Source of the DNA: Roseinatronobacter ekhonensis
GTDB taxonomy: Bacteria > Pseudomonadota > Alphaproteobacteria > Rhodobacterales > Rhodobacteraceae
Reading direction: 5' to 3'
NCBI RefSeq assembly: GCF_900499075.1
Contig: NZ_UIHC01000001.1
Coordinates: forward strand, 62,001 to 126,000
Length of the DNA stretch: 64,000 bases
In this document: piece after piece, positions 1 to 62,242 of the stretch
Layout: every line of letters begins with the position of its first letter
How positions within the stretch are numbered: position 1 is the first letter of the stretch
Translations under genes and position numbers: made by a program
Notes under the pieces: generated by a model
What the model saw: the letters and a program-made list of their open reading frames with translations, nothing else
Database searches by the model: none
What the model was told of the DNA's origin: nothing

Positions 1-747
1 GCCCGAGCGCCACAGGTTCGGCGTGATCTCATCCAGAAAGGCCCAAAGCGGTGCGGTCACGGCGTCGTAATCCACGTCGTCGGTCGGCTTTAGCAGGATC
101 GACGGGTCGTCCAGCACGCCATATAGCGCTTGTTTCAGAAAAGATGTGCCCAGAAAATCGGGGGGCTGCGGATATGTGAAGCGACCGGGGTTCGCGGCAA
201 TCCACGCGCGCAACGCGTCCAGCGAACGGGGCGGTTGCGGCACCGTCGCGCTGTCATATTCGAACACCATCTGGAACATCGCCCACGGGCTGCCATAGCC
301 CTCTACCGGCAGGGTGAAGTCGATCAGGATGGCCGGGTTGGCGTCGGTATCGACAAGCGACCAGTTGGGCAAATCCTCGGCAAAGGGGCCGAACAGCAGG
401 TCTTGGTCCTTCATAGAGGCGAAATTCGCCCCGTTGATCCAGATCACATCGACCGCGCCGCCGTCGTCACGGCCCGCCGCGCGTTCTGACACCACGCGGG
501 TCACAGCATCGGCGGTATCGGCCAAGCGGACATGTTCCAACGTGACATCGTGGCGCTCGGACAGCTCGGCCCCGACCTGCGCGATAAAGCTGTTGATCCG
601 GGGATCGCCGCCCCAAGCGTGCCAATACACGGTCTGGCCGCGCGCCTCTTCCAGCACAGCGGGCCAATCGGAGGTGTCCGGCGTCTGTGCGAATGCAGGC
701 ATCGCAAGCGCCAGCGCGCAAGCCGCGGCGCAAGTCTGAAATCGCAT
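1..747 (-). CDS. ynjB: YnjB-family ABC transporter substrate-binding protein (3' end outside window)
   Basis: This is a periplasmic binding protein of an ABC importer whose substrate is not known. The first 249 residues are visible and the gene runs off the left edge. Residues 1-20 form a Sec signal peptide ending in a PAFA cleavage site before Q21. The mature part has ARGQTV and HAWGGD (about 35-48), VRLADTADAV, VIWINGANF, LPNW and YPQPPDF in the same order as I recall from Escherichia coli YnjB. The ATG is preceded by a GGAG ribosome site. It diverges from a YnjF-like gene, the same partner as in the E. coli ynj cluster. The matching permease and ATPase (ynjC, ynjD) would be expected just left of the window. 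Family assignment is firm and the substrate is unknown. Confidence 0.85.
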   Translation of the reverse strand, partial: MRFQTCAAACALALAMPAFAQTPDTSDWPAVLEEARGQTVYWHAWGGDPRINSFIAQVGAELSERHDVTLEHVRLADTADAVTRVVSERAAGRDDGGAVDVIWINGANFASMKDQDLLFGPFAEDLPNWSLVDTDANPAILIDFTLPVEGYGSPWAMFQMVFEYDSATVPQPPRSLDALRAWIAANPGRFTYPQPPDFLGTSFLKQALYGVLDDPSILLKPTDDVDYDAVTAPLWAFLDEITPNLWRSG

Positions 748-826
748 GTTTTTACTCCATCGTGGTTTGCGTCTCAGTGCCTTTACGTTACGAGTTTGTC
801 AAAGGTTCCAATGTTTTTCGCTTTTG

Positions 827-839
827 CGACACGGTGTCG
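827..839. promoter_or_regulatory. 13-bp perfect palindrome between ynjB and ynjF, possible operator
   Basis: CGACAC-G-GTGTCG is a perfect inverted repeat in the AT-richer spacer shared by the divergent ynjB and ynjF genes. Its place, 68 bases before the ynjF start and 80 bases from the ynjB start, suits a shared operator. No cognate regulator is in view, so this is inferred from symmetry and position only. Confidence 0.3.
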
Positions 840-906
840 TGAAACACATTGCGGCCTTGGGCCGTATATTGATGACAAAGACCCGACTCCGGAAGGCCGC
901 CTGCCC

Positions 907-1515
907 ATGCTTGACCGACATTTGCGCCCGCTGATCGACCCGCCGCTCAACCTGATCGGCGGACAAATCGCGCGGGTTGGCCTGACCGCGAATATGGTCA
1001 CGCTGATCGGGCTGGCGTTCGGGCTGGCGGGCGCGGGGGCCATCGTTGCCGGGCATTTTCTGTTGGCGGTGGCGCTTATCCTGGCATCGCGCGTGGCGGA
1101 CGGGCTGGACGGCGCGGTTGCCCGCGCGCAAGGCGTGACCGATTTTGGCGGGTATCTGGATATAACCTGTGATTTCGTCTTCTATGCCGCCATACCCTTG
1201 GCTTTCGTGTTGCATGATCCGGCAGCCAATGGCGTGGCGGGTGCGGTGCTGCTGGCCAGTTTCTACATCAACGGCGCATCGTTTCTGGGATACGCGATCT
1301 TGGCGGAAAAGAAGCAGATGCGCAGCGACAGCCACGGGGTGAAATCGCTCTATTTCACCGGCGGATTACTAGAAGGGGCGGAAACCATCGCCTTTTTCGT
1401 TGCAATTTGCCTGTGGTCGCAATGGTTCGCGCCCATGGCCTATGTGTTCGCGGCCTTGTGTGCCGTGACAACAACTGCCCGTGTATTGCTGGCAGCGCGC
1501 GTGTTTCGGGGGTAG
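907..1515 (+). CDS. ynjF: CDP-alcohol phosphatidyltransferase, YnjF type
   Basis: This is an inner-membrane enzyme expected to move a phosphatidyl (CDP-linked) group onto an alcohol. The acceptor is unknown. The 202-residue protein carries the CDP-alcohol signature around residues 62-84: DG-x2-AR, then seven residues, then G-x3-D-x3-D. The usual spacing after AR is eight, and seven is what I recall for YnjF. Several hydrophobic helices surround it. The N-terminus MLDRHL and the late GGLLEGAET stretch also match my memory of E. coli YnjF. ATG 907 was chosen because MLDRHL is the conserved start and a GGAAGG site lies about 10 bases before it. An in-frame upstream extension looks non-coding. 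It diverges from ynjB and converges on bpt with only 6 bases between the stops. Confidence 0.85.
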   Translation: MLDRHLRPLIDPPLNLIGGQIARVGLTANMVTLIGLAFGLAGAGAIVAGHFLLAVALILASRVADGLDGAVARAQGVTDFGGYLDITCDFVFYAAIPLAFVLHDPAANGVAGAVLLASFYINGASFLGYAILAEKKQMRSDSHGVKSLYFTGGLLEGAETIAFFVAICLWSQWFAPMAYVFAALCAVTTTARVLLAARVFRG

Positions 1516-58610: not shown

Positions 58611-61378
58611 TGCCCCAACCTTTCCAACAGCGCGGGGACATGTACCTGATCGGATTTGTAATTGCCGGTCAGCACATGGGTGATCAGGTTCACCCCGAAC
58701 CGATACGCCATTTCACGCTGCTCCTCTCCTGACAGGCCCATGCCGATGCGCACCAAGGGTTGCCCGGCCTCGTCTACCGCCCATGCGGCTGCCCAGTCAT
58801 GCCCGCCGACAACAACCGGCGTTACCCCGTCATTGAGGTTGCGAAACGGCATCCCTTCGGCTTGTTCTGCGTCCGCGGGCGCGGCTTCGACCCAGACTTG
58901 TGCGCCGCGATACCGGCCCGGAAAATCGTCCAGAAGGTAGAAGGTGCGCGTCAGAACATGGTCGTCGGGGATCGGGTCCAGTGGCGGAATGTCCAGCGGC
59001 CGCGCGATTGCCTGCAACCGGCGCGCTTCGGGTGTGGTGCGGGTCAATCCGGCCAGTTCTGCATCGCGGGTGTCAAACAGGATCATCCCGCCGCCACGCA
59101 AATACCGGTTAAGCTTGGCATAGGCCGCGTCCGACGGGATGGGCGTTGTTTCCGTGATCGGCCAGTACAGGAAGGGAAAGAAGGTCAACTCGTCACGCTC
59201 CAGGTCCACGCCGATGGGCGGGTCCGGCTCTATAGAGGTGCGGGCGAACAGAATGCGGCTCAGCCCGCGTAAACCGGCATGCGCCATGTCGTCGGCGCGG
59301 GTGTCGCCGGTCAGGACATGACCCAGCACCAAGGCGCTGGTGGCTTGCAGGGCAAGACGGTCGCCCGCCTCATTCGGGGCCGCATCTTGGGCGCGCGCGT
59401 CGATTGGCATGGCCAGGGCCAGAAGGACCGCCGCAACGGCCCCACCGCGCAAGCGCCCCGACAGCCACAGGGCGGCGAGTATGTCGACCAGCAGCAGCGC
59501 AAGCCCGGCAAGCAACACAGGCGCGCGCAGGTCGCGCGTGACCGCCACGGTGTCGCGCTCTACCGGCACAGTTGCGGGCCATAGGGCGGGTGCAAGCGTG
59601 GTGTCCGGGGCGATCAGGTTCAGCGCCAGCGTCCCTGCCGCGCTGGAATAGACGCCGGGGGGAAGCTCGGGGCCAAAGTCGCGCGCGGCAAGTGCCGTGC
59701 CCTCGACCGCCGCACCCGCGCTGGCGTCGCGCACGTCGCCAAACCCGTCCAACGCGCGCTGTGGCTGCCAGATCTGGTCGGCCACGGCATCGGCCTTGAG
59801 CGCGCCGCCGCGCGTGGACACGGCCAGCCGTTCCAACATCTGCACGAACAGCCCGGACAGGGGCAGGGTGGACCAGTTTGCATTGGCGGTGGTGTGGACC
59901 AGAACGATCTGTCCATCTTCGTCGAATTTGCGCGTGACCAGCGGCGTGCCGTCGGCGAGCGTGGCAATCGTGCGCTCTGCCAAACCGGGGTCAGGCTGGG
60001 CCAGAACCTGCGCGGCAATGGTTACATCGGGCGGAATATCCAAGCCCGCAAAAGGCGAATCGGGCGCGAAATCGCGCAGACGGCGCGGCGCGCCCCAGCT
60101 CATCGCGCCGCCCACGGTGCGCCCGCCAATGCGCAGGCGGACGGGCAAAAGCGGGTCTTCGGCGTCGCGTGCGACCTCTGACGCGGCCAAGCTGGGCCCG
60201 GCAAAACGGAGCAGCATTCCGCCCGCGCGCACGAAATCCAGAATTTGCGCGCTCTCGACCTCGCCTAAACTGGCAACATCCACCAAGATCAACACATCGG
60301 GCGCGGTCAGCAGCAGATCGTCAATCGACGGGCTTTCGACCAGTTCCGAAACCGGACCAAGCGCCTGACGCAAGTAGAAGAAGGGCGACAGCAGGTCCGC
60401 GCCCTCATCGCCTTCCCGACCCGTCAGCAGGGCCACCTTGCGGCGCTGCAAGGCGTCATCGGTCAGTGCCACCGCGCCCGCGCTGCGCTGTCCCGCGATC
60501 TGAAAGCGGGTGATGCGGTTGCGCAGTTCGGGTTGCAGCACCAATTCAGCCTCTGCGGTTTGCGCGCCTGCCTCGAAACCGGCCGTGGCACGGGCAAGCG
60601 CGCGTTCCACACCTGCCGGATCGCGGCCTGTGGCGATGATGTCGATCTCGGTCGCGGGTTGTGCGGGCAAGCGCAGGGCTTGCAGGTTCAACACACCTTC
60701 GCGCAGCTCTGGCGGGGCCAGCGCTAGAACCGGGCGCGAGGTTTCAAACACCGTCAGCGCGCCACGGCTTTGCAAAGCCGCCGTCAAACCTGCGCGGTAA
60801 GGCGTATCCAACCCGTCCGACAGCCAATAGCTGTCCAGCCGTTCGGGCAGGGCATCGGCCCATGCGGCCACGGCATCGGCCCGTGCCGCATAGGGTGCAG
60901 GCGCCAACGCGCCCACACGCTCCGCCCAGAACCCGGCATCGCGCAGGGGCAAGGGGCCTTCGGGCAGGTCACTCAGCGCGACCACGGCTACAGGGCGGTC
61001 GGCGCGCGTGGCTTCTGCCAGCACTTCGGCCACGCGCTCTGTGCGGCGCGTCCAGTCGCGGGCGCTGGCCCAGCTGGCATCCAGAACCACCAATAATGGG
61101 GCATCACCCATCCGGCTTGCCTGCGGGTTCAGCACTGGGCCGGAAAAACCAACGATCAGCGCAGCTATGGCCAAGGCGCGCAGCACCAGCAGCCACCACG
61201 GGGTTTTGTCGGTTTCCGTGCGCTCGTCGGTCAGGCCCAGCAGCAGCGCCACGCCGGGAAACCGGCGCACAACAGGGGCGGGCGGCACCGCCCGCAACAG
61301 CCACCACAGTAGCGGCAAAGCGACCAGCGCGGCCAACAGCCACGGCGTGACGAACCCTATCGAGCCGAACGCCCCCAT
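58607..61378 (-). CDS. BatA-N and DUF4159 domain membrane protein
   Basis: This 923-residue protein has the aerotolerance-regulator (BatA) N-terminal helix pair (about 8-28 and 62-80), a von Willebrand-like region (VVLDASWASARDW at about 93-105), a long middle, and a DUF4159 domain in the last 250 residues (FFPFLYWPITE; RGGGMILFDTRDAEL; MGLSGEEQREMAYRFGVN). A helix at about 624-644 is followed by a second stretch (645-668) that reads like a complete signal peptide ending in DARA, which suggests a fusion of two ancestral genes. Its ATG abuts the DUF58 stop (TGAATG). It probably cooperates with MoxR and the DUF58 protein. The function is unknown. Confidence 0.82.
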   Translation of the reverse strand: MGAFGSIGFVTPWLLAALVALPLLWWLLRAVPPAPVVRRFPGVALLLGLTDERTETDKTPWWLLVLRALAIAALIVGFSGPVLNPQASRMGDAPLLVVLDASWASARDWTRRTERVAEVLAEATRADRPVAVVALSDLPEGPLPLRDAGFWAERVGALAPAPYAARADAVAAWADALPERLDSYWLSDGLDTPYRAGLTAALQSRGALTVFETSRPVLALAPPELREGVLNLQALRLPAQPATEIDIIATGRDPAGVERALARATAGFEAGAQTAEAELVLQPELRNRITRFQIAGQRSAGAVALTDDALQRRKVALLTGREGDEGADLLSPFFYLRQALGPVSELVESPSIDDLLLTAPDVLILVDVASLGEVESAQILDFVRAGGMLLRFAGPSLAASEVARDAEDPLLPVRLRIGGRTVGGAMSWGAPRRLRDFAPDSPFAGLDIPPDVTIAAQVLAQPDPGLAERTIATLADGTPLVTRKFDEDGQIVLVHTTANANWSTLPLSGLFVQMLERLAVSTRGGALKADAVADQIWQPQRALDGFGDVRDASAGAAVEGTALAARDFGPELPPGVYSSAAGTLALNLIAPDTTLAPALWPATVPVERDTVAVTRDLRAPVLLAGLALLLVDILAALWLSGRLRGGAVAAVLLALAMPIDARAQDAAPNEAGDRLALQATSALVLGHVLTGDTRADDMAHAGLRGLSRILFARTSIEPDPPIGVDLERDELTFFPFLYWPITETTPIPSDAAYAKLNRYLRGGGMILFDTRDAELAGLTRTTPEARRLQAIARPLDIPPLDPIPDDHVLTRTFYLLDDFPGRYRGAQVWVEAAPADAEQAEGMPFRNLNDGVTPVVVGGHDWAAAWAVDEAGQPLVRIGMGLSGEEQREMAYRFGVNLITHVLTGNYKSDQVHVPALLERLGQ

Positions 61379-62242
61379 TCAGCGCCCCCCGTCCAGCGCC
61401 TGCCACAGCGCCATTAGCGCGCGGCTTGGCGGTTGGTCCGTGTGGTGGGTCAATATTTGCCAGCCACTTTGCCGCGCCAGCGCGGCCAAGGCATCCTTGC
61501 GCGCGGCCAAGCGGTCGCGGTAGCGCGCTTGCAGATCGTTGGCGCGCAGGGTCTCATGTCGCAGCGTGCCGGTCATAGACTCAAAGATTGACCGGCCCTG
61601 ATAGGGAAATTCCTCTTCCACGGGGTCCAGAATTTGCACCAACACACCCCGCACGCCCTGGCCGACGGCGCGGGCGACAGTGTGCTCCAACCCCTCTGTC
61701 GGGCCAAGGAAATCCGACAGGAACACCGCTTGCGACCGCGCGGGCATCGCGCCTTGGGGGGGCGTGCCGAAATCCGTGCTGTCATCTGCGCCAAGTGCCA
61801 GTGTCAGCGGTGCCAGTTGCGCGCGGCCCATGCGTGGCGGCACATCCGGCAGCAGGCCAACCCGTTCGCCGCCCTTCAGCAGCAGCACCGCCAGTGCAAG
61901 CCCCAACAGGCGCGCGCGGTCGGATTTGGGCGCACGGTCCCTGGCCCCCGAAAACGCCATGGCCTGCGCGCGGTCTACCCAGAGCGTCACGGCTTGTGCC
62001 GCCTGCCATTCGGTTTCGCGCACGAAATGGGCATCCGCGCGGCCAGAGCGGCGCCAGTCAATCCGCCCCGCCCCGTCAGAGGCCGTGGCAGGGCGATATT
62101 GCCAGAATTCGTCGCCTTGCCCGGCGCGCCTGCGCCCATGCGCGCCGGGTAGAACCGACGCGGCCAAATGCTCTGCCTGCGCCAGAAGCGCGGGCAGCGG
62201 GGCGGCAAGCCCTTCGGCCCTTTGGCGCAGATCGGTCGTCAC
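61379..62242 (-). CDS. DUF58 domain protein
   Basis: This 287-residue protein of the DUF58 family is nearly always encoded next to MoxR ATPases and related to von Willebrand A-type metal-binding folds. Features visible are the PGAHGRRRAGQGDEFWQYRP start motif (about 32-51), IDWRRSGRADAHFVRE (the family's most conserved stretch, about 60-75), LWVDRAQAM and SDFLGPTEG. No membrane helix is seen, so it is cytosolic or peripheral. It overlaps the moxR stop by 4 bases and abuts the DUF4159 gene, which ties it firmly to this operon. Confidence 0.9.
   Translation of the reverse strand: MTTDLRQRAEGLAAPLPALLAQAEHLAASVLPGAHGRRRAGQGDEFWQYRPATASDGAGRIDWRRSGRADAHFVRETEWQAAQAVTLWVDRAQAMAFSGARDRAPKSDRARLLGLALAVLLLKGGERVGLLPDVPPRMGRAQLAPLTLALGADDSTDFGTPPQGAMPARSQAVFLSDFLGPTEGLEHTVARAVGQGVRGVLVQILDPVEEEFPYQGRSIFESMTGTLRHETLRANDLQARYRDRLAARKDALAALARQSGWQILTHHTDQPPSRALMALWQALDGGR

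Follow-up and report, generated by a model that had tools for sequence, protein, structure and literature searches.

Conserved association of the importer YnjBCD with the CDP-alcohol phosphotransferase YnjF suggests a head-group import pathway in Pseudomonadota

Background

Rhizobia combine a high-affinity choline importer, ChoXWV, with the phosphatidylcholine synthase Pcs. The scheme put forward here would be a variant of this arrangement, in which an ABC importer for an alcohol is again joined to a class I CDP-alcohol phosphotransferase (CDP-AP) that condenses the alcohol with CDP-diacylglycerol (CDP-DAG). It would differ in that the enzyme, YnjF, is not a Pcs and its acceptor would be another alcohol, and in that the importer, YnjBCD, consists of a binding protein, a fused double permease and an ATPase whose genes form one overlapping operon.

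In Escherichia coli K-12, ynjB, ynjC, ynjD and ynjF all belong to the set of genes without known function. The ydjXYZ-ynjABCD operon is activated by FNR, and ynjABCDEFI fall into one genetic-interaction cluster with Suf, which was read in that study as iron-sulfur related (PMC3930520); such a grouping is consistent with a common function. Within the literature searched, which was covered in part, no paper contains the word ynjF, YnjBCD is called uncharacterised, and neither an acceptor, nor a lipid, nor a link between YnjBCD and YnjF was found, in agreement with an initial annotation of the locus analyzed here as a candidate undescribed system. In this work we analyze the ynjB-ynjF pair of Roseinatronobacter ekhonensis and its distribution across Pseudomonadota. 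An importer that is almost never found without the enzyme, together with an unrelated importer that stands in for it, turns four genes of unassigned function into one testable pathway, and, if the proposal is true, adds a scavenged phospholipid head group to the most studied bacterium.

Methods

The window is a stretch of 64,000 nucleotides of the R. ekhonensis genome, and features to its left are given in coordinates of the contig (C123). Proteins with full-length similarity to E. coli YnjF, and standing apart from the other CDP-APs of the same genome, were considered to be YnjF orthologues. Co-occurrence was analyzed in 398 Pseudomonadota genomes that had been evenly sampled, with the YnjB family in 51 and YnjF in 60; all YnjF matches in these genomes lay at or below 6.3e-54, with none from there up to the limit of 1e-15. 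The CNT clade linked to YnjF was delimited at >650 bits, the next CNTs scoring at most 541. Gene starts in the count of layouts were derived from profiles, and overlaps were confirmed on annotated plasmid records. For fold matches, differences in Z below 1 were taken as ties.

Results

The left edge of the window carries a ynjB gene diverging from a ynjF gene, as first described from the letters alone and now borne out by family scores, sequence identity and a 159-bp gap. The 5′ part of ynjB (positions 1..747, minus strand) encodes residues 1-249 of 403 and is truncated at the window edge, the rest lying to the left (full gene 61536-62747 of contig C123, minus strand). Its product, a periplasmic solute-binding protein with a signal peptide, matches PF13416 and NF008633 (NCBIfam; PRK11622), and scores 331 bits with the window part and 511 bits with the full gene, above the curated cut-off of 203, as a YnjB/COG4134-type binding protein. 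Directly downstream, on the minus strand of the same contig, lie ynjC (59878-61539), a fused permease gene with 43% identity to E. coli YnjC in the best segment, and the ATPase gene ynjD (59252-59881), with 49% to E. coli YnjD; ATGA overlaps join the three genes into one operon (L002), complete where the initial annotation had proposed to look for it. On the other side of the divergent region (748..906), which is common to both genes and provides both starts with plausible ribosome-binding sites, ynjF (907..1515, plus strand) encodes a class I CDP-AP of 202 aa matching PF01066. The similarity to the E. coli proteins extends over long stretches, as the initial annotation had stated, with 41% identity over 376 aa for full-length YnjB and 45.6% over 193 aa (E=6e-50) for YnjF; at the DNA level, the window ynjF matched nothing in E. 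coli genomes, as expected at 46% protein identity. An unrelated reading frame of 285 aa, convergent with ynjF, lies a few bases to its right.

The E. coli ydjXYZ-ynjABCDE/ynjF locus contains orthologues of B, C, D and F, and the initial placement of ynjB and ynjF in one ynj cluster there proved correct, since K-12 ynjF lies 4.7 kb from ynjB. It differs in layout: E. coli ynjF is convergent to ynjBCDE, with ynjE in between, whereas the window gene is divergent from ynjB, and no ydjXYZ, ynjA or ynjE was found near the window pair.

The catalytic CDP-AP motif of YnjF is intact (D65GLDGAVAR73...G81GYLD85ITCD89, residues 65-89; 1099..1173, plus strand), and its four Asp are invariant across 36 diverse YnjF. 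Together with six transmembrane helices, preceded by an N-terminal helix, this motif (DxxDGxxAR...GxxxDxxxD) assigns the protein to the class I enzymes, and the AlphaFold model (pLDDT 89) shows a CDP-AP fold. Among solved structures it comes closest to phosphatidylinositol-phosphate (PIP) synthases (Z 20.3, rmsd 2.5 over 186 residues), AF2299 (Z 19.4) and AfDIPPS (Z 18.8), with PIP synthase and AF2299 tied. In the PIP synthase RsPIPS, two arginines, Arg153 and Arg191, contact the inositol phosphate through its phosphate, which they bind; the first of them is absolutely conserved among PIP synthases and required for activity (PMC4634129). YnjF shares with RsPIPS and MtPgsA1 (PIP/archaetidylinositol phosphate synthase) the fold, the six helices, the motif and the Arg at the Arg191 position (Arg192, codon 1480..1482, plus strand), which is invariant in YnjF. 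It differs from them in the position of Arg153, occupied by Thr160 (codon 1384..1386, plus strand; Thr in 36/36 YnjF), in a GxxT replacing the RxxR motif, and in the additional invariant residues Arg62, Tyr93, Phe119 and Lys146. Because this phosphate-binding position is an invariant Thr, inositol phosphate is an unlikely acceptor for YnjF. No assignment to Pcs is possible either, as the sole match is to the Borrelia-type family NF045885, whose cut-off is 400 bits and where 21.5 were scored.

The binding protein gives no comparable indication of its ligand. A model of YnjB made on a close relative (L122) has a pLDDT of 92 and a standard binding-protein fold, and its matches to sugar, polyamine, sugar-phosphate, glycerophosphodiester, UgpB-like and iron binders are tied (Foldseek, VIA-align); a sequence search of the PDB yielded weak polyamine and maltose matches and nothing stronger. 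With these ligand classes scoring about equally, assignment of a solute from the fold was dropped. Riboswitches were sought as a further clue, and none was found at the Rfam gathering score in 21 loci (~400 kb), where the RNA matches were tRNA and SRP RNA only.

Across the phylum sample, YnjF is present in 49/51 genomes with YnjB and in 11/347 others (Fisher p 2e-49), the exceptions with YnjB alone being two genomes (G318 and G124). Counted by genus, it occurs in 30/32 with YnjB and 8/181 without (p 7e-27). Since common ancestry inflates such genome-wide figures, we also counted within the family of the window, where 11 genomes carry both proteins, none YnjB alone, six YnjF alone and ten neither (YnjF in 11/11 versus 6/16; p 0.0009); in the genus of the window, all 18 of the YnjB genomes have YnjF. 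Plasmids follow the same pattern: among 72,556 plasmid records, 75 have YnjB and 63 have YnjF, in nearly the same genera. Conversely, 11/60 YnjF genomes in the phylum sample lack YnjB, eight of them also lying outside the CNT-bearing order described below, which indicates that YnjF can act without either importer, on an endogenous acceptor or with another importer.

The two genes are also physically linked. In 35/51 genomes, spanning seven families, ynjF lies within 10 kb of ynjB, and 14 genomes carry both genes unlinked. When 80 named YnjF loci were picked regardless of YnjB, ynjB was found within 10 kb in 34, of which 33 also had C and D. All loci read fall into four layouts, namely F>B>C>D (34), B>C>D>F (20), divergent (13) and convergent beyond ynjE (7); besides the window, the divergent layout occurs in 12 other loci, where the two genes stand 170-345 nt apart when starts are taken from profiles. 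The B>C>D>F loci mostly have overlapping reading frames, D>F overlaps measuring 4-19 nt in 16 loci, and overlaps or gaps below 15 nt mark F>B in about 20. The initial annotation had read the keeping of this pair in differing arrangements as a working link, one that would fall if ynjC and ynjD were missing beside ynjB or if the pair were adjacent in only a few unrelated genomes; both genes are in place, the pair is far more widely distributed than that, and co-occurrence and linkage strongly support the link. We conclude that YnjBCD and YnjF almost certainly work together as one functional unit.

Where Sphingomonadales loci lack ynjBCD, a gene for a CNT-family permease immediately precedes ynjF, an adjacency newly described here. 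Among 149 Sphingomonadales genomes, 20 have YnjF and 16 the YnjF-linked CNT clade, and YnjF is present in 16/16 of the latter (p 4e-18); the CNT gene adjoins ynjF (≤50 nt) in 14/16 and is unlinked in two (G495, G418). YnjB was found in none of the 20 Sphingomonadales YnjF genomes, and the CNT clade in none of 34 YnjB genomes. The operon in most of the loci read runs from an nSelD-type oxidoreductase gene through a VTT-MerA fusion and the CNT gene to ynjF.

The YnjF-linked protein is a full CNT with three Pfam domains and can be compared with the nucleoside permeases NupC and vcCNT. In vcCNT, Gln154, Thr155 and Glu156 contact the base and Glu332, Asn368 and Ser371 the ribose, while Phe366 contacts both (PMC4139061, PMC5465479). 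The YnjF-linked CNTs retain Glu156, Glu332, Asn368 and Ser371 and differ from these permeases in having Val-Val (Leu-Val in one) for Gln154-Thr155 and, in many, Val for Phe366, whereas three ordinary NupC-type paralogues that share a genome with them show Gln-Ser-Glu and Phe. Retention of the ribose contacts and loss of two base contacts hint at a solute resembling a polyol or sugar and speak against an ordinary nucleoside. Four CNTs of a sister subfamily (L217, L218, L219, L220), from Sphingomonadales genomes without YnjF, also have Val-Val-Glu, which is therefore a trait of the wider subfamily and not specific to partners of YnjF.

Other neighbours recur less regularly. In about half of the lineages, the pair has as its companion a VTT (TVP38/DedA-like) protein fused with a MerA-like flavoprotein; the E. 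coli operon has separate VTT proteins, YdjX and YdjZ. The fusion was found in 21/43 genomes that have YnjB, YnjF or both, versus 4/37 others; as it is enriched yet missing from half of the YnjF/YnjB genomes tested, we discarded it as an obligate partner. In one genome (G047), ynjF follows a pssA-like gene and overlaps it.

Discussion

We propose that periplasmic YnjB would bind a small, alcohol-like solute, to be imported through the fused permease YnjC with the ATPase YnjD, and that YnjF would transfer the phosphatidyl group of CDP-DAG to a hydroxyl of this molecule or of a close derivative, so that the resulting phospholipid would carry an imported head group. The import would fall to a CNT-family symporter in Sphingomonadales. 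Uptake of an alcohol or head group for attachment to lipid had already been suggested in the initial annotation, and we adopt it as the best model. We infer a single pathway in which import comes before the YnjF step, with the imported molecule as acceptor and CDP-DAG as donor. The proposal gains support from the CDP-AP fold and motif of YnjF, from the proximity of ynjF to pssA and Mla/Pqi-type genes in single genomes and from the replacement of ynjBCD by a CNT gene beside ynjF, since the association of two unrelated importers with one enzyme makes it hard to see the imported solute as irrelevant to that enzyme. Taken in full, from alcohol import by YnjBCD or CNT to phosphatidyl transfer from CDP-DAG, we give this model an even chance of being right. 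The lipid chemistry is a prediction, as the best fold matches of YnjF include AF2299 and AfDIPPS, enzymes of soluble CDP-alcohols. More tentatively, and with less expectation of being correct, the product of YnjF could be a phospholipid class new to E. coli and other Proteobacteria, with a polyol- or sugar-like head group scavenged via YnjBCD in most lineages and via a CNT with an altered base site in Sphingomonadales.

Other readings of the same data have to be considered. The genes could form part of a redox or stress module of the envelope, made up of TVP38/VTT proteins, MerA-like flavoproteins and thiol enzymes, in which the importer supplies a cofactor or metal ligand and YnjF merely tunes the lipids, with no metabolite shared between them. 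The enrichment of the VTT-MerA fusion, which adjoins ynjF or ynjB in many loci, the genetic clustering of the E. coli genes with Suf iron-sulfur assembly and the FNR activation of ydjXYZ-ynjABCD all point this way. However, half of the YnjF/YnjB genomes lack the fusion, the compact unit of the Rhodobacteraceae and of one other family (f68) consists of BCD and F alone, and in most lineages the neighbour of ynjF is an importer gene, not a redox gene, so that we regard this reading as rather unlikely. It is also conceivable, if improbable, that the donor is a soluble CDP-alcohol, as for the archaeal DIPP synthase, and that the pair converts the imported alcohol into a soluble phosphodiester, which would act as a compatible solute or signal: AF2299 and AfDIPPS, which do not process lipids (PMC4634129), are among the nearest folds, but the CDP-DAG-using PIP synthases score as high or higher within the limits of a tie, no cytidylyltransferase gene recurs beside ynjF in the loci read, and ynjF comes after a pssA-like gene in one genome and, on a Roseivivax plasmid, after genes for lipid trafficking.

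The same fold comparison might be taken to make YnjF a PIP synthase supplied by YnjBCD with inositol or inositol phosphate, and the best weak NCBIfam matches are indeed to archaetidylinositol phosphate synthase and PIP synthase (NF045883). At 72 and 42 bits, respectively, these fall far below the cut-offs of 180 and 170, and one of the two phosphate-binding Arg is replaced by Thr160, which makes this assignment very unlikely; free inositol may nevertheless serve as acceptor, by comparison with eukaryotic PI synthases, which lack this Arg. Least probable of all, in our estimation scarcely credible, is that the linkage of ynjB and ynjF is inherited synteny devoid of functional meaning. Neighbouring species probably do share their arrangement by descent, so that genome counts are not independent, but the co-occurrence holds at genus level, inside a single family and in the 14 genomes with unlinked genes, overlaps arose at two different operon junctions (D>F and F>B), and an unrelated importer took the place of ynjBCD.

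Several neighbourhoods merit description in their own right. In one locus (L118:9673-11795), a 228-aa frame, by eye perhaps a phosphatidylserine decarboxylase, is followed by a pssA-like CDP-alcohol phosphatidyltransferase gene and ynjF, with overlap, and on the Roseivivax plasmid pTHAF40_a (L200) a pqiA-pqiA-MlaD-lipoprotein run (lipid-trafficking MCE) immediately precedes ynjF-BCD in the same orientation. VTT, pssA-like and MCE neighbours fit work on membrane lipids, and none identifies the product. Two genomes without YnjB have a tight run of genes for a HAD hydrolase, YnjF and a GCV_T-domain (aminomethyltransferase-like) protein (L109:8381-10837 and L114). Near another ynj locus, 12 near-identical tRNA genes stand in tandem, mostly ~119 bp apart (L038:14400-15873).

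Genes for TIGR04282/TIGR04283 'arsenosugar' glycosyltransferases lie near ynjBCD or ynjF in five loci (L106, L036, L037, L041, L063), all from two families (f66, f58): beside ynjBCD in f66, and near ynjF in L106. Several of these loci also have the VTT-MerA fusion, a DUF547 gene or an Nterm_to_SelD oxidoreductase gene. An arsenosugar phospholipid was considered as the product and rejected, TIGR04283 being mostly absent where YnjF is present and common where it is not. In one genome (G160:C18:63064-65223), a VTT-MerA gene beside a TIGR04283 gene contains one in-frame TGA, possibly a selenocysteine codon.
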